From positions 1 through 61,535 of IMG/VR virus record IMGVR_UViG_3300035182_000178: DNA of 61,535 bases; one strand, 5' to 3'. Below, piece by piece: positions 6,633-59,736 of this stretch. Source of the DNA: a virus. Position 1 is the stretch's first letter. Every line of letters starts with the position of its first letter. A program made the position numbers and the translations under genes. The notes beneath the pieces are model-generated. The model searched no databases and was not told where the DNA came from. It saw only the letters and a program-made list of their open reading frames with translations.

Positions 6633-7094
6633 CTACGGCACCTTGGCTGGCTCAACGCGTTGGCCCCTAGGGGCAAGTATAGGCCAACCCAATAGAGTTG
6701 CTGGCGTACTGTCCAAGGGAACTGCATACTCAGTAAGTTCCGTCCTTGTCATGTCGTTAAAGTGTTCAGCTAGGTGGCTCGGAACAATAAACGTTTGCCG
6801 TGCATGGCTTACCCCCACACCACATAAGATAACGCTGCGTAGGCGCTTCTGCGAAGCTGCTATGTGCCATGCTATTTGTTCCACGCGCAGTCCGTCACGA
6901 CCAAACACCTTAGTTGTGTCACGCTTCGGCCATTCTTTCTGTGCTTTCAGTTCTACCCAGCAGTACCAGTCACCTTCGCCGATCCACAGGTCTGGAACAC
7001 CGTCACCAGTACTGGTCTCTATACGTACGTGAAAAAGCCCCGCTTTCTGCAAGCGAGGCTTCAGGGAAGACCAGAGATTATTCTCGGCTGCCAT
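6633..7094 (-). CDS. VRR-NUC / PD-(D/E)xK-type nuclease
   Basis: 153 residues. It shows the PD-(D/E)xK core D35-x12-E48-L-K50 in the context GVPDLWIG...VELKA, with a downstream Q73 in VEQIAWH, as in VRR-NUC and Holliday-junction-resolvase-like phage nucleases that cut branched or damaged DNA. Its start overlaps the stop of the radical SAM gene (TAATG), and AGGGAA provides the ribosome site. It is the last gene of the leftward operon. The role in replication or recombination is inferred from the fold only. Confidence 0.7.
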   Translation of the reverse strand: MAAENNLWSSLKPRLQKAGLFHVRIETSTGDGVPDLWIGEGDWYCWVELKAQKEWPKRDTTKVFGRDGLRVEQIAWHIAASQKRLRSVILCGVGVSHARQTFIVPSHLAEHFNDMTRTELTEYAVPLDSTPATLLGWPILAPRGQRVEPAKVP

Positions 7095-8044
7095 TATTTT
7101 TCCCAGGGACGTTTGACAATTGCCACGCGATTGATGTGATTGTCCTTTATCAGAGCGACGTCAGCGTCGGTGTAGCCCTCGAGCTTGACCTTACCGAATT
7201 TATCTGGTAGCAGACCGATACGGTAAGATGGATGATCACATCGTGAACAGATACCGATCTTATCACGCTCACCTGTGAGAAGGATTCGACGTGCAGCTTT
7301 GAACTTTTCATTGTTCCAGATCGTGTCAATTGCAGTGTGGTTGATGTTACCGAAATCAGTTTCGCGACGCCAGTCAATGCAGCAGATGGAAATATGTCCG
7401 TCCCACTTTACAGCCACCTCGCGGAACACCTTGGCACAACGTGCCTTCACCTTCCTCGGAGGAAGCCCGATTCCAGCGTGGTTGTTCAGTACGCTGTGTG
7501 TGCCTTTGGTTTCACCTGCAATGTCAGTCAGGAACACGAGACGCTGCTTGCGTGAACGCTGGTGCGGATTGGCGTCCTTGTTCGCTGGATAGTTCATTAC
7601 TTCGCGTGAAGCAGGCCAAGCAATCTTTTCGCCGAGGCCGCCGTCATAGTCTTCGATCGCCAGTGTGTTGATGCCAGCATCGAATATTGAATCGATCATC
7701 CCTTCTTTGGTGAACTTGGCGCCGTTACTGAGCATAACCATGTACTGACGCGGCAGGTGACGTCGGAAGGCTTCAATGATCAGGAACACATTGGGATTCA
7801 TAGAAGGCTCGCCGAAGCCAGCGAACAAGAGTTGACTATTCCACCCTGCGATCTTGATCTGCTTTGCTAGCTCCTCCGCCGTTTCCAGCGTCATGAACTT
7901 GTAGTCGCCGACGCCTTCACGAATACCATTGAGACCGCACGCCCAACAAAGTCCTTCGGTGCCGTCTGGTCGTGGAACACGGATATTACAACCTTCTGTC
8001 AGGTCGATCTGGATAGTAAAGGGCGCGTCTTGATTATAACTCAT
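7094..8044 (-). CDS. Radical SAM enzyme with SPASM-like C-terminus, putative DNA-base hypermodification
   Basis: 316 residues. An N-terminal cysteine set C19-x13-C33-x2-C36 (EGCN...CWACG) would hold the SAM-binding [4Fe-4S] cluster. It is an expanded version of the usual Cx3Cx2C. FAGFGEP is the GGE-like SAM-binding motif. The C-terminal part has VKWDGHISICCIDW and CSRC, typical of SPASM/twitch auxiliary clusters. Start 8044 is chosen for its GGAGATC site; it overlaps the GT-like gene by 11 nt. Radical SAM enzymes act in phage thymidine hypermodification (M6-type pathways). Here that role is inferred from co-localisation with hmdU-type genes. Confidence 0.75.
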   Translation of the reverse strand: MSYNQDAPFTIQIDLTEGCNIRVPRPDGTEGLCWACGLNGIREGVGDYKFMTLETAEELAKQIKIAGWNSQLLFAGFGEPSMNPNVFLIIEAFRRHLPRQYMVMLSNGAKFTKEGMIDSIFDAGINTLAIEDYDGGLGEKIAWPASREVMNYPANKDANPHQRSRKQRLVFLTDIAGETKGTHSVLNNHAGIGLPPRKVKARCAKVFREVAVKWDGHISICCIDWRRETDFGNINHTAIDTIWNNEKFKAARRILLTGERDKIGICSRCDHPSYRIGLLPDKFGKVKLEGYTDADVALIKDNHINRVAIVKRPWEK

Positions 8045-8951
8045 TGTAGATCTCCAGGAGTGTGGACTTAAGTTCTGCGACATAGTCTGTCGTCCACAGG
8101 TTACGTTGCTCGTTTCGCATAGCTAGTAGATCGGTGCTGCGATACATATGCTCAAGATCAGCAGCGTTTTCTACTTGCCACTTTTCAGGAACAATAATGT
8201 TGGCTTCGCGCAGCATCTTCACCGACCGTATGTCAAAGAAGATCGGGACACCGGCTGACAGCATTTCATAGAAACGATTGGCTGGCGAATGAAACTCACG
8301 ATGCGAGCGCTCGTCTTCTATGTAGAGCGCAGCATCAAAGCGACATGCTTCCTTGATCACGTTTTCAAACGGCTTGATGAACTTAACGTTCGCACCTATC
8401 GCCTCAAACTTCTTGCGACGAAGCGTCGTGGTGCTGACGGTGATCGGGCAGGTGCCTGTGAAGAACCGCTTGAACGACTCTTGTCGCTTTTCACGGAAGG
8501 CGCCGTAGTAAAGGACACAGTTGTTGCTGAGCATCCTGAACGGATGTGGGTCATAAGTCAGTTGGTTCCAGTTGATGTACCTATCGTCTTCAGTTATGAC
8601 GTTATTACGACATGTGGTCCAGAACACAGGGCGCAGCTTAAGTTCAGCGAAGACCTTACGGAACGGTGATTCGGCGTTACTATTGGCTGACGGCGGCATG
8701 ATCGTATAGTCTTGCTGCACCCAGACTACTTGCTTGCTTCGCCGGACAAGGGTAGCAAGCTCCGGCAGGAAGTCACAAAAGGCCATAGGTCCGTTGACGA
8801 TGATCAATTTTTCAATCGGACCTTTGTCCTTTGCTCGTTCTTTGGTGTCAATGAGACTGAGACCAAGTGTATCGCAAATGAACCGGGCGACACGCGCACT
8901 GGCGATTGTACTGTTCGGCTTACATTCTGTCATATGTACGACGCAGTTCAT
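8034..8951 (-). CDS. Glycosyltransferase-like protein (GT-B C-terminal signature)
   Basis: 305 residues. The segment SPANRFYEMLSAGVPIFFD near residue 225 matches the nucleotide-sugar-binding signature of GT-B glycosyltransferases (xNKxyExLaaGvPvi), including the catalytic-pocket Glu. The N-terminal half looks like a degenerate Rossmann domain. Its start overlaps the preceding stop (ATGA) and its end overlaps the radical SAM gene. Pairing with radical SAM, ThyA and hypermodification genes suggests it may glycosylate a modified base, but a surface or nucleotide sugar substrate is equally possible. Confidence 0.6.
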   Translation of the reverse strand: MNCVVHMTECKPNSTIASARVARFICDTLGLSLIDTKERAKDKGPIEKLIIVNGPMAFCDFLPELATLVRRSKQVVWVQQDYTIMPPSANSNAESPFRKVFAELKLRPVFWTTCRNNVITEDDRYINWNQLTYDPHPFRMLSNNCVLYYGAFREKRQESFKRFFTGTCPITVSTTTLRRKKFEAIGANVKFIKPFENVIKEACRFDAALYIEDERSHREFHSPANRFYEMLSAGVPIFFDIRSVKMLREANIIVPEKWQVENAADLEHMYRSTDLLAMRNEQRNLWTTDYVAELKSTLLEIYNEL

Positions 8952-9314: not shown

Positions 9315-9668
9315 CTACTCGTCGCAAGCGCCCTTTACCCATCTATATTCGTAACCGCGCTTTCGGTTATAGACCTTTGCGCCATCACGATTCTGCTTCT
9401 CAATAAAACCCATTTTCTCGAGCTTCCGGAGAAAGGGAGTAGATACAGTCGACGCATAGCCGAGACGCTGCTCAATCTGCGCTTGCGTTGACCATGTTTC
9501 AGAAAAAATAACTTTTGAATACCGATCGATAGCTTCTTGGGTATGCTGTTCGCGACCCTTCTGCGCAATCGCTTTCCAGCGTTCGAGTTTGGCATCGTCC
9601 GTACCCTTGTTGCGGTTGAAATGACTGGCAGCTTTACCTGCCGCCTCAATCTGAGCTACGAGACTCAT
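9315..9668 (-). CDS. Putative winged-helix DNA-binding protein
   Basis: 117 residues. The region around 58-95 (WSTQAQIEQRLGYASTVSTP then LRKLEKMGFI) reads like a winged helix-turn-helix: helix, turn, recognition helix and wing. The C-terminus (RKRGYEYRWVK) is basic. It is coupled to the dCTP deaminase gene (ATGA overlap at 9665-9668). It may be a transcription regulator; specific target unknown. Confidence 0.5.
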   Translation of the reverse strand: MSLVAQIEAAGKAASHFNRNKGTDDAKLERWKAIAQKGREQHTQEAIDRYSKVIFSETWSTQAQIEQRLGYASTVSTPFLRKLEKMGFIEKQNRDGAKVYNRKRGYEYRWVKGACDE

Positions 9669-10219
9669 TTTTCTTTCACCTGCTGAGTCGCATGATCGCC
9701 GTTATAGCGACCACGAACAGCGTAAGACTTGTCTTCCGGCACTGGCTCTGAACGCCAGAAGATCATCTGACCGATACGAACATTGTGGTGGAGACGAATC
9801 GTGTGCCAGTTGCAGAAGTTGGTTAGTTCTAGCGTTAGAACACTGTCGTGCCAGCGTGGATCGCACCAAGTAGCCAGCGAATTTTCCAAGCCAACGCGAG
9901 CGCCAGAGCTATTGAGCTTGAACTCACAGCTGATGTCGTTCGGCAAGAAGAACTTCTCGGTCGTCGAAGCAAGGATAAACGCCTTAGGCCGTAGGTCAAA
10001 GTAACTGTTCGTGATGTCGACTTCTTGCATGAACAATTGTTCTTTGTCGCGCAAAGAAATGGTTGGGTTACTTTCCGGGTAGCATTCGAACTGCACCTTC
10101 TGACCTAGGTGAACGTCAATAGACGTGCCGTTGATGTCCTTAGGGTCTACCCCGGTAATGTAACCACGTTCAACAAACTCGCATAATTCGTTATAGCTTA
10201 TTAGACTTTTTTGCTTCAT
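9665..10219 (-). CDS. dcd: dCTP deaminase
   Basis: 184 residues, dUTPase/dCTP-deaminase fold. Motifs: GTSIDVHLG near residue 31, ILASTTEKFFLP, NSSGARVGLE (nucleotide-binding SS-AR-GL motif) and DPRW...LTLELTN containing the catalytic Glu. It converts dCTP to dUTP (some members go on to dUMP), feeding dUMP to the ThyA-family enzyme encoded in the same operon. Start 10219 is supported by AGGAGAAGGA; the upstream in-frame codon at 10261 lies within the previous gene. In hmdU phages such an enzyme supplies the uracil pool. Confidence 0.8.
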   Translation of the reverse strand: MKQKSLISYNELCEFVERGYITGVDPKDINGTSIDVHLGQKVQFECYPESNPTISLRDKEQLFMQEVDITNSYFDLRPKAFILASTTEKFFLPNDISCEFKLNSSGARVGLENSLATWCDPRWHDSVLTLELTNFCNWHTIRLHHNVRIGQMIFWRSEPVPEDKSYAVRGRYNGDHATQQVKEK

Positions 10220-10376
10220 CTTCCTTCTCCTTCTGTGGTTGCAGTTGTTCGTGTTCGACACAAGTGTCAGTCGCTTTGGTCTTCTTGCCGAAGATGCGCT
10301 CGTAGCTGTCGCGTCCTTTTTCAGACAAGATCCCTTTGGTTCTGATCTTGTCCCCTGTTATGTCATTTCTGCTCAT
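10191..10376 (-). CDS. Small charged hypothetical protein
   Basis: 61 residues with a GAGGAAC ribosome site. The very basic/acidic C-terminus (KEKEDEAKKSNK) is probably disordered. It overlaps both neighbours, the 165-residue gene by 4 nt and dcd by 29 nt. Not recognised. Confidence 0.55.
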   Translation of the reverse strand: MSRNDITGDKIRTKGILSEKGRDSYERIFGKKTKATDTCVEHEQLQPQKEKEDEAKKSNKL

Positions 10377-11157: not shown

Positions 11158-11187
11158 ATTGTAGCACACTACCCAGCTAACCCCCAA
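11158..11187 (-). promoter_or_regulatory. Internal promoter candidate at the end of the polymerase gene
   Basis: On the minus strand, TTGGGG, an 18-nt spacer and TACAAT, preceded by GTGTGC as at 59753. It would re-initiate transcription for 11119 and the downstream dcd, GT-like and radical SAM genes. Confidence 0.35.
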
Positions 11188-13076
11188 TTGGCACCGCGAC
11201 CATCAGACACCAAAACAGGAACTACCAGCTTGTAGGCAGAAGTCATGATGTGTTTCATGTGCAAAGCTGCTTCCTCGTGACGCGGATTACCTGTCTCTAT
11301 ACTCATGCCTAACTCGTCATACACCGTGTTATGGTACATACCAAGAACGTCGGTGACTCCGTCTTGTACGCCCATAACCATCGCTTTCTTGATCCAATCA
11401 GCATTAGCCCCCTGCATGATAGCGTTCGCGGCTTTGTGCGTATGTGCGCGTTTGACCGCACCCCATGCCCTAATGGCAGCTTCTTTGTCTCTGGTGGGTT
11501 TCCATTTGTCTGGGTCTTTGGCTCGCTCTTCGGGACTAACCCACTTCGCACACTCCCAGGACTCAAATCTACGGCGGCGACCCCCTATGGTCATCACCCA
11601 ACCACGCGCCTGAGCGCGTTCCATGGCCTTATTGGACATTGCTTTTACGAACGGAGCGCGTTCATGATACTGGTTAAGAATCACCAAAGATTCTTTCTTG
11701 CTCAGCCCCAAAGACGAGGCCAATTTCTCTACGCCCATCCCGTACGCAAGACCAAAGTTAATGTTCTTCGCTTGCTTCCGGGTAAGCCCGGTGAGCTGAG
11801 CACACATTTCGTGGAAATCTGTTGCTGGATCTTCTTGGTACATTCGGAGCGCTGCTTCCACACCGCTGCGAGGAATTGTACTCGCAAAATGTACCATGAG
11901 GCGATATTCCATTTGGCTAAGGTCATAGCGAAGCCATTCGCACCCAACTTCAGGAAGGAACATCCCACGACACTTTTGAGAAAAATACGGATCTTTCTCT
12001 GGATTCGGAATGTTCGCAAGATTGGGGTGCGCGGTTGAAGTGCGACCTGTAACAGTTCCATATTCGTCTCCTTTGAGTTGATTGAAAATCGCATGAACAC
12101 GTCCGTTGACGTGCGAATTAAGGATATATCCTTGAATAAACGTATTTAGGAAATGTCGGTACTTCTTTGCATCCCTGATTGCACCAAGGAACGGTACTTG
12201 GTCTTCAAGTGTTGCGAGGACTTTACTGTTGAGTTTGGGATTACCGATTATAATGCCCTTCTTGAGCATCGCTGACGTCGGGGGATGGCGAGGATACGAC
12301 ACACCGAGCTTGTCAAGCTCTGCGGCAATCTGAGTAGAAGAACCAGCGTTAATTCCCGCGAATGACTTTTCCAGTTCTCGAAGTTTCTCGGCCCACTCAG
12401 CTTGAAGTGTTTCGGCATATTGAACATCGACGCGTACTCCTGTTAGATGCATACGAACAAGGATGGGGAGCAGGGCACATTCTACTTTCCAAATGTCTAG
12501 CAGACCTTGTTCTTCAAGAAGCGGTAACTGCTTGTCAAGTATTCGTATAGGTAAGTCGACGTCGCCTTTGGCGTAAGGTTCGACGATGTGAGCCGGACAT
12601 TTCCAGATGAATTTCTTTTCATGACCCGGCTTCGCTTTGAAGTGCTGACGGATATAGGTCAGCATTTCGTCTTCTACTTTACCTTCGCCGAGGTATTCTT
12701 GAGCCAGTGTTTCGAGTGCGTAACTGAACCTCTCTTCGTCGATAAGAGGTTCCGCAACTTGGATGTCGAAGAACGGGCCTTCCACTTGCACACCTTCAGA
12801 CCATAGGAACATAAGGTCGTATGCAAGGTTGGCACCACATTTAGGTATAGGTGTGGAGAGTTGTTCACTGAGCCAGCGTAGAACGGTATTCCTGTCAAGG
12901 TTTCCGCCTCCTTCATGGCGGATAGGAAAGTACCAGCGAGCTGTGCGCGTCCCGATAGCGACACCGGCAATATACCCGTCACGAACTGCTCCCGGCCCTT
13001 TTTCCTTGAGGTCAGGGTCGTAGGTTTCACAGTCAATGGAGATAATGTCTGCATTTTGTAGGTTTGGAAACATCAT
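11169..13076 (-). CDS. polA: Family A DNA polymerase with 3'-5' exonuclease domain
   Basis: 635 residues. The exonuclease domain shows D15-x-E17 (IDCETYD), N83-x3-D87 and D172 (YAKGD). Polymerase motif A is D385 in YDLSQMEYR, motif B is K434QAKNINFGLAYG446, and motif C is VYDE with D587. There is no 5'-nuclease domain, as usual in phages. Length and architecture fit the replicative polymerases of T7-like and related phages. It probably works with the AEP primase and helicases of the same operon. Adjacent ATGs at 13076 and 13073 are both possible starts. Confidence 0.93.
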   Translation of the reverse strand: MMFPNLQNADIISIDCETYDPDLKEKGPGAVRDGYIAGVAIGTRTARWYFPIRHEGGGNLDRNTVLRWLSEQLSTPIPKCGANLAYDLMFLWSEGVQVEGPFFDIQVAEPLIDEERFSYALETLAQEYLGEGKVEDEMLTYIRQHFKAKPGHEKKFIWKCPAHIVEPYAKGDVDLPIRILDKQLPLLEEQGLLDIWKVECALLPILVRMHLTGVRVDVQYAETLQAEWAEKLRELEKSFAGINAGSSTQIAAELDKLGVSYPRHPPTSAMLKKGIIIGNPKLNSKVLATLEDQVPFLGAIRDAKKYRHFLNTFIQGYILNSHVNGRVHAIFNQLKGDEYGTVTGRTSTAHPNLANIPNPEKDPYFSQKCRGMFLPEVGCEWLRYDLSQMEYRLMVHFASTIPRSGVEAALRMYQEDPATDFHEMCAQLTGLTRKQAKNINFGLAYGMGVEKLASSLGLSKKESLVILNQYHERAPFVKAMSNKAMERAQARGWVMTIGGRRRRFESWECAKWVSPEERAKDPDKWKPTRDKEAAIRAWGAVKRAHTHKAANAIMQGANADWIKKAMVMGVQDGVTDVLGMYHNTVYDELGMSIETGNPRHEEAALHMKHIMTSAYKLVVPVLVSDGRGANWGLAG

Positions 13077-13230: not shown

Positions 13231-13620
13231 TTACTTTTCAATCTTCTTACATTCTATGAAGACACGAAGACCTTCGGTGGCGGCGATCAGTTGGGAGACA
13301 CTTTTCCAGTGCATAATGCAGTCGATCAAGTAAATCTCTTCTTGAGGAAGACTGTTACTTACACAGAACCTCTGGAAAAGTGTTTCGTTCTTACGCGCCC
13401 CGCGAATGATTCCAGTGTAGCTGTGGATACATTCCAGGCGCTTAACAACGTACGAAAGCGCCTTTTCAAGATCAATGACACCGTTTTTCTTCCGCCAACG
13501 AGTGATATATTTCGTCGCCGCGTATTCCAGATTGGGTACATTGACTTCTACGCAGTAGTCCCAGTGTTGGTAGTCTGCCTTGTAATGCGTCCCCGCGACC
13601 TGTTTGCTGTCACTTATCAT
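13231..13620 (-). CDS. DUF3310 family protein (T7 gp1.7-like putative nucleotide kinase)
   Basis: 129 residues. The first 60 match DUF3310: GTHYK near residue 11, an HWDY segment, then ATKYITRWRKKNG...DLEKALSYV. The T7 member, gp1.7, is a nucleotide kinase acting on dTMP and dGMP. Placement between polA and the HD/ThyA genes suggests a deoxynucleotide-kinase role, possibly on a modified dUMP (inference). It overlaps the HD gene by 11 nt. Confidence 0.7.
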   Translation of the reverse strand: MISDSKQVAGTHYKADYQHWDYCVEVNVPNLEYAATKYITRWRKKNGVIDLEKALSYVVKRLECIHSYTGIIRGARKNETLFQRFCVSNSLPQEEIYLIDCIMHWKSVSQLIAATEGLRVFIECKKIEK

Positions 13621-14128
13621 ATGTGCTTTCTACGCTACGAAGAGATGAGACGACTGAATCCAGAAGTATCTTGGCTTTCGCTGGTAATTCCGACAGTTCG
13701 AATGAATCAAAGAACTGAACACCGTTTCGAAGAGGTTCGATGGCGTTCTTGTTGCCCATGTTGATTTCGTCAATACAGAACTGGCACAGTTCCATCATGT
13801 CAGCGAACTTCAGCTCCCGGGTTTCTTCTGCTGTCAGGTTCTGAGTCAGGTTATAACGCTTGTCAAATTCTGCTTCTTGAAGCGAGAGCTGACGCCGTAA
13901 TTCAGGCGAACGCCACTTCGTTGTGGCCGGGATATCACCTGTTTCCAGTTCGGCGAGATCGTGATAAAGAGCCGCTTTCAGAAGTTCTGGACGCACGTTT
14001 CCTTCGTAGATGTGAAGAAGAATCACAGCCACACCGTAGGAATGCTCGGCGAGACTCTGATCACGAGTAGTGGGTATGGTGTGAAAACGCTTCACACGAC
14101 TTGCAAAACGAAGACTATTGTAGCTCAT
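13610..14128 (-). CDS. HD-domain 5'-deoxynucleotidase (YfbR-like)
   Basis: 172 residues. Metal ligands of the HD superfamily are visible: H29 in AEHS, H56-D57 in LYHD, and a late Asp in FADMMEL. The GDIPATTK motif after HD matches the GDxPxPVK signature of YfbR 5'-deoxynucleotidases, which dephosphorylate dNMPs. With ThyA directly upstream (ATGA overlap at 14125-14128), it may remove a canonical nucleotide such as dTMP so that a modified one is used. That substrate is inferred. Confidence 0.75.
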   Translation of the reverse strand: MSYNSLRFASRVKRFHTIPTTRDQSLAEHSYGVAVILLHIYEGNVRPELLKAALYHDLAELETGDIPATTKWRSPELRRQLSLQEAEFDKRYNLTQNLTAEETRELKFADMMELCQFCIDEINMGNKNAIEPLRNGVQFFDSFELSELPAKAKILLDSVVSSLRSVESTYDK

Positions 14129-15096
14129 TTCTTGTCCTTGTTATAACGACGCTCAAGCCATTCGGTTGTGTACAAGCGCCAGTCGTCGGCACGAATGTTG
14201 TTGACGAAATCAAGACCGTTGCGGTAGTGCTTGTGGGCAATGAAGACTTCCCACATAGGCTTGACTACTTCCACAAAGAACGGGGTATCGAAGGAAACGC
14301 GTTCGTAGTTTTCGAAGAAGTTAATGAGATCAGAATTGAACTTATCGCGTGTAGTTTCCTTGAACAGGGGATAGAATGTCACAGCTCCTTCTCGGTATGG
14401 GTCTGTGATGTGAACATGGTGGTTCTTTACTTTTTCCCATTTATCGTTCAATTCCGTGTAGACATGCATGGAGTCGGTAGTCTGGTGATAGACGCCTACT
14501 TCGCAACCGATACACCCGGCCATGTATTCTTGAAGGATGCTGAACTGAGGCATGTTGGCCCCGGTCATACCCCAGATGAAATCATTACTACGATTGAACA
14601 CGTGGATATTCAAAGCACCATTGCGAATTTTGCAAGCGATCGCGGTGTTACACGGTTGATCTTTACCGGAATACCACATATCGTCCGGTTTACGAATCTG
14701 TAAAACAACGCGACGATCATCTGGATTTTGCTTGAGAATCTCAATCGCTTTCTCAATCTGGTCATTCGGGTGGCGCATACGATGCCCGTAAGCACCGTAG
14801 AAGACATCGCCGTTGTCACTATACTCTTTGAATGTAGAAACAATGTCTGCCAGGAACTCTACATCTTGTTGGCCAGCGAGAATCCACAGTGGTTCGAAGA
14901 AGTGTAAGAACGGGTTGATGTCACGAACTTTGTCAAACAGTACTCGCTCTTGTGGGCGTGTGTATGAGATACTGACGGGGTTCTCGTATTCAATAACAGG
15001 TCCATTACGACTTGCCCGTCGTTCACCACGACAATTCAAGAACAAGATTCCTCTCGGGAATGCATCGTTCACATTTCTGGCTTTGATTGTGTCCAT
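14125..15096 (-). CDS. Thymidylate synthase family enzyme (TS or dUMP hydroxymethylase)
   Basis: 323 residues. ThyA fold: LWILAGQQD near residue 70, GAYGHRMR, DDRRVVLQIRKPDD (phosphate-binding Arg), catalytic C149 in DQPCN, NRSND, and N181 in TGANMPQFS, the Asn that selects uracil over cytosine. This argues against a dCMP hydroxymethylase. Thymidylate synthase and dUMP hydroxymethylase cannot be separated by eye. The residue after the catalytic Cys is Asn, not the His of bacterial ThyA. Start 15096 (not 15144) is chosen because GGAGGAAAG lies just upstream and it gives a TAATG junction with the preceding gene. Confidence 0.85.
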   Translation of the reverse strand: MDTIKARNVNDAFPRGILFLNCRGERRASRNGPVIEYENPVSISYTRPQERVLFDKVRDINPFLHFFEPLWILAGQQDVEFLADIVSTFKEYSDNGDVFYGAYGHRMRHPNDQIEKAIEILKQNPDDRRVVLQIRKPDDMWYSGKDQPCNTAIACKIRNGALNIHVFNRSNDFIWGMTGANMPQFSILQEYMAGCIGCEVGVYHQTTDSMHVYTELNDKWEKVKNHHVHITDPYREGAVTFYPLFKETTRDKFNSDLINFFENYERVSFDTPFFVEVVKPMWEVFIAHKHYRNGLDFVNNIRADDWRLYTTEWLERRYNKDKK

Positions 15097-15278
15097 TAAC
15101 GCTTTCCTCCAGTTTTGTGGTAGTTCTCCCACCACACTTTGCATTTACGATACTGGCTGACTGCTGCTTCCACAGAAACGCACCAACCATTAGGGTCACC
15201 TTTGACACGGAACATTTCTTTACCGGAAATCGCCCCGTGTTTCTTGGCTACAACAATCTTTTCAGCCTCGGCCATCAT
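15096..15278 (-). CDS. Small basic hypothetical protein
   Basis: 60 residues starting at 15278 (GCGGAG site). Trp-rich C-terminal half (WCVS...KVWWENYHK) with a Lys-rich N-terminus. It lies between the hypermodification gene and ThyA and overlaps both, so it could be a small partner of one of them. Not recognised. Confidence 0.55.
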   Translation of the reverse strand: MMAEAEKIVVAKKHGAISGKEMFRVKGDPNGWCVSVEAAVSQYRKCKVWWENYHKTGGKR

Positions 15279-16104
15279 ACTTACTCCGCACCTTACCGCC
15301 ATCATACTTCAAACGCATGTACTTGTCAAACTCACACATACAGTTCTGTATGTCGTGAAGCGCAATGTCTTCTCCAAGGCGGCTATTGACTATTTTCTGT
15401 ATGTCCAGTAGTTCACGCGTCCCCTGCTGTTGTTTAATTGTACCACCCAAGGGGCGTCCGTATAAACGGTTCAAGCCACGAGTAGATCCTGGGCCGAGGG
15501 GTGCGAACGTGTTCCAGTCTGCGGCTGCGATGAGCGGGTGTGTGTACTTCAAATCCGCAATAACTTGACCAGCCATAAACGAAGAGAAGCCCTGAAACTG
15601 CTGAAGATAATTCCAATATTCTTCGAGTGACTGACCGACCACCGGGTTCTTGATCGTACTCAAGAGGGGTTTGAATACGACATCACACACGTAGTCAATC
15701 TTGTCCATAGAAAGACCGCAGGTTGATACCGTATAGGCACCAGTGAAAATCTTGTGCCCACCGACATCGCGACGACATTTCAACTTATCACGAACTTTAT
15801 TGAGGTCCGGTGATTCAGAAAATATTTCGTCTTGTATAGCGTGCAAGGTATCTGGCCAGTTGAAAATACGCGCGACGCACATGGCAAAGGCGAGGTTCTT
15901 GTGCGTGCTGAACATGTTCATCCAGTTTTCTTGGATCCAAATACTGACGCGGTCATCGTTTCGGCGTACGTTACAAAACTTGTAGTCGCGAAGGATCGGG
16001 TCTTTCGTCCAAGGTTTCGGGGAACCGAGTACGTCTTTCTGGATACGAATTGCTTCGCGTTCCGTGATCCAGTGAAGCAACTCAGAAAGGGCAGTTTCCA
16101 CCAT
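15262..16104 (-). CDS. DNA-base hypermodification protein (5-hmdU DNA kinase helical-domain / aGPT-PPlase type)
   Basis: 280 residues. The N-terminal signature EREAIRI...PWTKDPILRDYKFCNV (about residues 15-46) followed by RRNDDRV is characteristic of the helical, DNA-glycosylase-like domain family of phage base-hypermodification proteins (alpha-glutamyl/putrescinyl thymine pyrophosphorylases and the helical domain of 5-hmdU DNA kinases). No P-loop is visible, so it is the helical enzyme alone. Family knowledge: these proteins act on 5-hydroxymethyl-dU in DNA. Start 16104 is set by GGGAG. Neighbouring ThyA, HD and radical SAM genes support the role. Confidence 0.75.
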   Translation of the reverse strand: MVETALSELLHWITEREAIRIQKDVLGSPKPWTKDPILRDYKFCNVRRNDDRVSIWIQENWMNMFSTHKNLAFAMCVARIFNWPDTLHAIQDEIFSESPDLNKVRDKLKCRRDVGGHKIFTGAYTVSTCGLSMDKIDYVCDVVFKPLLSTIKNPVVGQSLEEYWNYLQQFQGFSSFMAGQVIADLKYTHPLIAAADWNTFAPLGPGSTRGLNRLYGRPLGGTIKQQQGTRELLDIQKIVNSRLGEDIALHDIQNCMCEFDKYMRLKYDGGKVRSKYDGRG

Positions 16105-16345
16105 TATATTTCTCCCAGTAAAGTTTCCCGTCAATCGGGTCACGAATATAACGACCTTTTTCGCCACGGTATTCAAAATACGCAGTGGTGAGGCTGTGAG
16201 ACTCGAACTTCAGTCCTGAAAGAAACACTGTCTCACCTTTCCAAGGGCCGTCTGCGCAAATAAAATCTGACTTAATATTGATACCCGTACCTTCCTTGCG
16301 GTAGCACGATGGTGACGTCTTGCTTGCTTCTTGTGACTGCGACAT
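16082..16345 (-). CDS. Small hypothetical protein, start uncertain
   Basis: 87 residues if started at ATG 16345, but that codon lacks a ribosome site and the first 25 codons lie inside the helicase gene. The part that looks conserved begins near 16290 (INIKSDFICADGPWKGE). A GGAAGG sits seven bases before an ATC codon there, so a non-standard start is possible. Beta-rich with YFEYRGEKGRYI; the 3' end overlaps the hypermodification gene. Not recognised. Confidence 0.5.
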   Translation of the reverse strand: MSQSQEASKTSPSCYRKEGTGINIKSDFICADGPWKGETVFLSGLKFESHSLTTAYFEYRGEKGRYIRDPIDGKLYWEKYNGGNCPF

Positions 16346-59239: not shown

Positions 59240-59436
59240 GGGTCGTCACCCTTGGTTGGTTAGGAGCACACAGTGTAGCACGGGTTGGAGTAGGAAACTT
59301 GGTTGGTTGAGGGGAGTATGTAAATGGCATATGTAAATTTTTTGAACATTCAAAAATTTCGACTGCGGGTGAGTGGGCAGGGAGGCCGATGCACTCATCC
59401 AAATGGGGGTCTCTCGGTCATCAATCGACGAAGAAC

Positions 59437-59628
59437 GTTGTCCCGTTGTCCCGTTGTCCCGTTGTCCCGTTGTCCCGTTGCCCCGTTGTCCCGTTGCCCC
59501 GTTGCCCCGTTGCCCCGTTGTCCCGTTGCCCCGTTGTCCCGTTGCCCCGTTGTCCCGTTGCCCCGTTGTCCCGTTGTCCCGTTGTCCCGTTGCCCCGTTG
59601 CCCCGTTGCCCCGTTGCCCCGTTGCCCC
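59437..59628. repeat. 8-bp tandem array GTTGYCCC, 24 copies
   Basis: 24 perfectly phased copies of GTTGTCCC or GTTGCCCC, differing only at base 5 (T or C). The order of that base is TTTTTCTCCCTCTCTCTTTCCCCC. It lies between TerL and the 59823 gene. It could be a protein-binding array (packaging, partition or replication iterons) or a slippage-prone minisatellite. The unit is too short and lacks spacers, so it is not CRISPR. Confidence 0.95.
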
Positions 59629-59736
59629 ACGATCCGAGGTCAAGCGCCTGTCTCCGTTGTATGCATATGCACGGGAGGCATTAGCTAAACTTATGGGGCA
59701 ATAAAAATATTTATGGTACAGGTCACAAAAAAAGTA

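Follow-up and report, generated by a model that had tools for sequence, protein, structure and literature searches.

Glycosylation of phage DNA is already known, from T4 and, for hydroxymethylcytosine (hmC), from glycosyltransferases (GTs) of metagenomic origin, as is thymidine hypermodification in which amino acids are added. The DNA of Pseudomonas phage M6 contains 5-(2-aminoethyl)deoxyuridine (5-NedU), made through 5-hydroxymethyldeoxyuridine (5hmdU; PMC6449724), and in T-even phages the TAGT family (PF20691/phrog_842) extends glucosyl-hmC (PMC13216743). BtrN, a radical SAM enzyme of the ‘twitch’ type, carries out a two-electron oxidation of an aminocyclitol (PMC9012708). In the locus described here, an enzyme resembling T4 beta-glucosyltransferase (BGT) is linked both with the hmdU pathway and with a radical enzyme of the BtrN type. 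We favour, by a modest margin and without any analysis of product, donor or DNA, the view that the two form a phage DNA-glycosylation module, in which the GT is followed by a sugar-tailoring radical SAM enzyme (rSAM).

The locus lies in a virus contig of 61.5 kb (‘the window’, meaning the whole stretch of DNA analysed); the closest matches to the large terminase of this contig (40–44%) come from Caulobacter and Brevundimonas phages and an unclassified Caudoviricetes record. The genes of the locus form a minus-strand run in the order UvrD-like helicase, PF18723 protein, thymidylate synthase (TS)-like protein, HD protein, DUF3310-like protein, polymerase A, dCTP deaminase-like protein, two small ORFs, GT and rSAM, the last two standing near the downstream end and followed by a small ORF of a nuclease/helicase family (Table 1). 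An earlier note, made from the sequence alone, had placed the pair at the end of a nucleotide-modification operon, and this held, with the TS-like, YfbR-type HD, family-A polymerase, dCTP deaminase-like and PF18723 genes all on the same strand. Its description of two ORFs overlapping by 11 nt also held, provided that rSAM starts at ATG 8044 (MSYNQ...), the point at which the alignment of relatives begins; an alternative in-frame ATG at 8083 would extend the overlap to 50 nt. Elsewhere in the window, an ORF at 59324–59704 consists of an imperfect short tandem repeat (RCPVVPLSRCPVAPL...) and may represent a repeat array and not a true gene.

Table 1. Positions in the window of the GT–rSAM pair, its internal features and the neighbouring modification genes.
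Feature	Position	Strand	Description
GT	8034..8951	-	305 aa; GT-B glycosyltransferase resembling T4 beta-glucosyltransferase; predicted hydroxymethylpyrimidine-DNA glycosyltransferase
rSAM	7094..8044	-	316 aa; BtrN-like radical SAM / twitch (PF13186-type) enzyme
Overlap of GT end and rSAM start, 11 nt	8034..8044	-	translational coupling; tight spacing conserved
Radical-SAM cluster motif C19-x13-C33-x2-C36	7937..7990	-	three cysteines invariant in 61 aligned sequences
30-nt in-frame insert VPRPDGTEGL (C-x3-C-x2-C to C-x13-C-x2-C)	7949..7978	-	missing from 60/60 relatives
PF18723 ‘HMUDK_hel’ / aGPT-Pplase1-type protein	15262..16176	-	E=7e-45; 33% identical to M6 ORF055
Thymidylate-synthase-like protein, predicted dUMP hydroxymethylase	14125..15144	-	PF00303, phrog_5131, BLAST to M6 TS 1e-79; orthologue of M6 ORF058
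YfbR-like HD 5'-deoxynucleotidase	13610..14128	-	as in M6 and Pam3 modules
Small DUF3310-related protein	13231..13620	-	kept in module (M6 ORF061)
Family-A DNA polymerase	11169..13076	-	module member
dCTP deaminase-like protein (dUTP/dUMP supply)	9665..10261	-	PF22769 E=1.6e-22

Phages M6 and Pam3 share with the window orthologous TS-like, HD, PF18723 and polymerase genes, in a gene order common to M6, and the PF18723 protein is homologous to M6 ORF055 and Pam3 aGPT-Pplase1. The M6-type criterion of a TS-like hydroxymethylase together with PF18723 is thus met. However, the window has neither the amino acid:DNA transferase of M6 (ADDT, PF18724), nor its PLP enzyme, its own radical SAM protein, Nmad5 or a clear kinase; in place of the M6 back end it has the GT and a different radical SAM enzyme. 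Since the M6 orthologues are kept and the later M6 enzymes are missing, the front end is best read as the hmdU pathway and the back end as GT plus rSAM.

An M6-type rival, in which hmdU carries an amino-acid adduct that rSAM isomerises and the GT-like protein is a bystander, is favoured by the fact that the M6 radical SAM protein, ORF053, adjoins the same PF18723 and TS genes. Against it, ORF053 was not detected by BLAST or profile in the GT and rSAM loci; likewise missing are ADDT, the PLP enzyme and Nmad5; and the window is without a 5-hmdU DNA kinase. ADDT was matched in M6 and Pam3, but in neither the window nor 19 GT records, and it was near none of 46 rSAM loci and none of 38 GT loci with adequate flanks (defined below). 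This rival is accordingly held to be very unlikely: M6-type chemistry was tested through ADDT, the PLP enzyme, the M6 radical SAM protein and Nmad5, none of which was found, and was rejected.

The GT had no Pfam or PHROG match at E≤0.1, so that the earlier note's description of it as GT-B-like lacked support of that kind and was confirmed by structure prediction. An AlphaFold2 (AF2) model built from a 62-sequence alignment (pLDDT 95.7) was compared with all PDB chains, and T4 BGT entries came top (Z 22.0–22.5 over 286–293 residues), followed by T4 AGT with HMU-containing DNA (Z 17.3) and other GT-B enzymes (≤16.8). A profile sequence search of the PDB returned only noise, so the likeness to BGT was revealed by structure alone; hhalign of the GT to T4 BGT gave E=1.7e-6. 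Residues D81, R153, R156, D213, R226 and E229, each conserved in at least 62/63 sequences, align with BGT D100, R191, R195, D258, R269 and E272. BGT D100, whose importance is signalled by the title of a D100A structure, is the catalytic base, and R191, R195, R269 and E272 contact UDP. It is therefore very likely that the GT glycosylates 5-hydroxymethylpyrimidines in phage DNA, although catalysis, sugar, donor and product are all inferred and there are no chemical data.

The likeness to T4 extends to the fold, which is GT-B over the full length, to the catalytic Asp and UDP-binding Arg/Glu residues, and to the gene cluster: gene 42 adjoins b-gt, placing a TS-type hydroxymethylase alongside, as in the window. 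In contrast, the two enzymes are only ~15% identical, the precursor gene of the window is of the dUMP (hmdU) type whereas that of T4 is of the dCMP type, and the T4 b-gt region has no annotated counterpart of the radical SAM enzyme coupled to the window GT or of the PF18723 protein found with it. Relatives among 50,697 named phage records were confined to two distant ones (24%), E. coli phages IME392 and EP_H11 being the only cultured phages found with one. In IME392 (L001:13292-18924) the GT directly overlaps PF18723, and the same region holds a PIG-L-like deacetylase (recognised by eye), a further GT-like protein, a P-loop kinase, TS and HD. Some operons carry two copies of the GT, arranged as GT–rSAM–GT (L134:7995-10611) or in tandem (L171:1504-3290).

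For rSAM, Pfam matches were obtained both to Radical_SAM (PF04055, E=1.1e-8, 35.9 bits against a cut-off of 29.5) and to SPASM (PF13186, E=1.7e-13, above cut-off). BtrN was the closest solved protein by structure (AF2 model pLDDT 91.6; Z 24.9 over 235 residues, next 15.2) and by profile (E=1.2e-31, HMMER aligning both domains); SpeY, DesII and anSME were also among the structural neighbours. The twitch criterion, C-x9-15-G-x4-C followed by C-x2-C, is met by C203-x12-G216-x4-C221 and C266-x2-C269, all invariant, indicating one auxiliary cluster; the full seven-cysteine SPASM pattern, with a second auxiliary cluster, is not, there being no cysteine after C269 in the window protein. Cysteines 203, 221, 222, 266 and 269 are invariant in 61/61 sequences.

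Like BtrN (2-deoxy-scyllo-inosamine dehydrogenase, of butirosin biosynthesis), rSAM has one radical-SAM cluster and a twitch domain, with four cysteines at matching positions, C203 and C221 aligning with BtrN C169 and C187. By fold and by the positions of its auxiliary-cluster cysteines it is BtrN-like, while dehydrogenase activity is inferred. It differs in a C-terminal extension of ~35 residues, in its phage DNA-modification setting, in the window member's C-x13-C-x2-C motif, in having His or Tyr where BtrN has Arg152, and in an extra invariant cysteine. The residue standing for R152, H189, is not itself invariant, and with this replacement the chemistry may differ. The extra cysteine, C222, stands immediately after a cluster ligand, at the position of BtrN F188; radical epimerases use an active-site cysteine as hydrogen donor, and oxidation and epimerisation therefore both remain open. 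Moreover, the substrate of BtrN is a free small molecule, so that the fold does not by itself imply a DNA-bound sugar as substrate.

The earlier note had called the C-x13-C-x2-C motif unusual for the family. This held, but the motif proved private to one protein: the canonical C-x3-C-x2-C, not met in the window, was present in 60/60 non-redundant relatives, so the 10-residue insert is no family trait. As a mark of new chemistry the expanded motif was therefore rejected. It is possible that an insert beside the SAM cluster impairs the window enzyme, although the AF2 model is confident. QueE is a precedent for an expanded radical-SAM cysteine motif; a literature search for precedents of C-x14-C-x2-C returned only a ThiC paper.

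Relatives of rSAM were scarce outside uncultured viruses. Only one, distant (26%), was found among 50,697 named phage records, with no cultured phage carrying a close one, and 84,980 bacterial and archaeal genomes yielded a single contig, of 19 kb, from a MAG. Scanning viral contigs with a single sequence found nothing, and an alignment-driven scan was needed to find rSAM relatives there. Such scans of IMG/VR gave 64 GT loci and 62 rSAM loci, non-redundant at 90% identity, totals in which the window and both of the distant loci from named phages are counted. Neighbours were counted within a radius of 6 kb at loci flanked by ≥4 kb on both sides. It should be borne in mind that the contigs counted are fragments, and that the counts, other than those of the PF18723 sample below, rest on profiles made in this analysis and on loci retrieved by way of the very genes counted, rSAM or GT.

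Genes of hydroxymethylpyrimidine synthesis were common at both sets of loci. Of 38 flanked GT loci, 30 had PF18723 or TS, seven had TET/ParB and one had neither; the corresponding numbers for 46 flanked rSAM loci were 39, three and four, the window itself being among the last four because its TS gene lies ~6.0 kb away, just past the radius. Members of the window GT family also adjoined a TET/JBP dioxygenase (PF12851) and a ParB-like protein at 15/64 GT loci (for example L169:553-1482 and L157:7315-8001), in the manner of other TET-associated phage DNA glycosyltransferases, and such loci sometimes carried rSAM as well (L134, L143). As the pair thus occurs with TET/JBP too, the shared feature is a hydroxymethylpyrimidine handle bearing a sugar.

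These neighbourhoods bear on the possibility that surface glycans of host or phage, rather than DNA, are what the pair modifies, as in serotype conversion or changes to capsule or LPS. GT-B enzymes are common in polysaccharide loci, which is the point in favour; against it, hmdU or TET/ParB genes adjoin 37/38 flanked GT loci, the nearest fold is that of a DNA glucosyltransferase, and rSAM was found in one bacterial contig only, leaving this rival very unlikely. The earlier note had named occurrence mainly in surface-polysaccharide loci as a result that would refute it, and related phages showed the opposite. It had proposed modelling both proteins, which gave T4 BGT and BtrN as best matches, and seeking the pair beside ThyA/hmdU genes in other phages, where an association was found (37/38 GT and 42/46 rSAM loci, TET/ParB included). 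Its interpretation of the pair as a possible new base modification is supported by the related loci and the GT structure, in the absence of any DNA chemistry.

Association between the two members of the pair was asymmetric. A GT of one of four families lay within 6 kb in 44/46 rSAM loci: the window family in 13, TAGT, the commonest alternative partner, in 24, a second GT-B-like family in 14 and a second GT-A-like family in four, with two at some loci. The second GT-B-like and GT-A-like families are named only from sequence motifs and weak Pfam matches; TAGT is of the GT-A fold, whereas the window GT is GT-B. By comparison, rSAM was present at just 14/38 GT loci. That rSAM needs a GT, whereas the GT does not need rSAM, fits an rSAM acting after the GT. 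Where the window GT family directly preceded rSAM, the gap between the stop of the one gene and the start of the other was −16 to +8 nt in 12/12 loci, so that the coupling goes beyond chance and the earlier note's suggestion that the two are probably made together held; spacing beside other GT families was mostly comparably tight.

In a further rival, oxidation by rSAM would fall on the hydroxymethyl group or on the base, as in conversion of 5-hmdU to 5-formyl-dU or something similar, independently of any sugar. Alcohol oxidation is within the scope of radical SAM dehydrogenases, anSME figures among the structural neighbours, and hmdU is the common precursor in 39/46 rSAM loci. However, rSAM was found without a GT in just 2/46 loci, one of them the 26%-identical outgroup; oxidation of the hydroxyl would destroy the acceptor of the GT; and the pair also occurs in TET contexts, where TET already oxidises the base. 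This reading is judged unlikely.

It remains possible, though rather unlikely, that rSAM modifies a free nucleotide-sugar donor before transfer, the GT then adding a sugar that is already unusual. Among its closest structures are BtrN, SpeY and DesII, whose substrates are small sugars, aminocyclitols or a TDP-sugar; in addition, some GT relatives (L117 and L119) carry an ADP-heptose pathway of their own, so these phages do make donors. Against this, the GTs coupled to rSAM come from four families and two folds, which could more readily have a product-side motif in common than a single donor, and loci with heptose genes lack rSAM, an HldE-type kinase being near none of the rSAM loci.

The heptose genes, namely HldE-type kinase, GmhA, GmhB and HldE-type adenylyltransferase (the last found in L117 and L119), lie beside GT, PF18723 and TS in L117:11152-13601, L119:8429-10897 and L111:12631-15088, while at L007:7105-8001 the HldE-type kinase alone of these genes overlaps the GT. 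All were profile matches below curated equivalog cut-offs. ADP-heptose as donor, and hence heptosylated DNA, is suggested for these relatives by gene content. Separately, an APS kinase and a P-loop protein resembling a sulfotransferase (without Pfam match, judged by eye) occur near GT or rSAM (L163:9094-9552, L010:6818-7588, L039:7295-8008), and sulfation of a DNA-linked sugar may be envisaged at such loci.

PF18723 presents a difficulty. Although named for the helical domain of the 5-hmdU DNA kinase, it lacks a recognisable kinase partner in the window and at most rSAM loci (PF18723 near 38/46, kinase near six); no 5-hmdU DNA kinase (PF18748) was recognisable in the 61.5-kb record, which may be incomplete. 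A sample anchored on PF18723 itself (66 non-redundant loci, from the best 80 of >570 matches) included 38 with GT and six with ADDT, none having both, and all five loci with rSAM had a GT. Within this sample GT was found in 0/6 loci with kinase, compared with 22/29 without (p=0.001). A strict rule that the GT replaces the kinase was nevertheless dropped, kinase-like genes being near 11/38 GT loci. Conceivably, PF18723 is a general base-presenting subunit, but its role in the kinase-less window is left unexplained and counts against the explanation preferred here.

That explanation, of a glycosylation module with subsequent sugar tailoring, may be set out in three steps. In the first, inferred from gene families, dCTP deaminase and the hydroxymethylase-type TS would supply 5-hydroxymethyl-dUMP, to be polymerised into phage DNA. 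In the second, strongly supported though without chemical proof, the BGT-like GT would move a sugar from a nucleotide-sugar donor onto the 5-hydroxymethyl group, with Asp81 as base and R153/R156/R226/E229 holding the nucleotide, probably assisted by the PF18723 helical protein through recognition of the base. In the third, which is inferred, the translationally coupled rSAM would act on the sugar already on DNA, abstracting hydrogen from a carbinol carbon; the outcome would be either a keto-sugar, by transfer of an electron to the auxiliary [4Fe-4S] cluster in the manner of BtrN, or inversion of the centre, by return of a hydrogen from invariant Cys222. The product would be a remodelled glycosyl-hydroxymethyluracil, shielding phage DNA from host nucleases and sugar-cleaving defences.

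Because rSAM depends on a GT, while the kind of GT and the precursor route (hmdU or TET) are exchangeable, the simplest common substrate is a sugar on a hydroxymethylpyrimidine. Even so, that rSAM acts on a DNA-linked sugar is an inference for which the case is evenly poised. A bolder reading, towards which the balance of evidence does not quite tip, is that rSAM oxidises or epimerises glycosyl-5-hydroxymethyluracil directly on double-stranded DNA, and does so across dozens of uncultured phages, with partners interchangeable among four glycosyltransferase families and with the precursor reached by either of two routes, through hmdU or through TET. In the literature searched, where coverage of the likeliest related papers was incomplete, there was no description of an hmdU route with a radical SAM partner, nor any of radical-SAM tailoring of DNA-linked glycans.

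None of the enzymes of the proposed module is out of the ordinary, and all lend themselves to expression and assay. If the proposal is true, two chemistries hitherto treated apart would be joined, through radical-SAM tailoring of a DNA-linked sugar. Remodelling a sugar already on DNA would then have a testable rationale, namely escape from defences that remove or recognise glycosyl groups, and would, if so, constitute an undescribed way of chemically disguising viral DNA.
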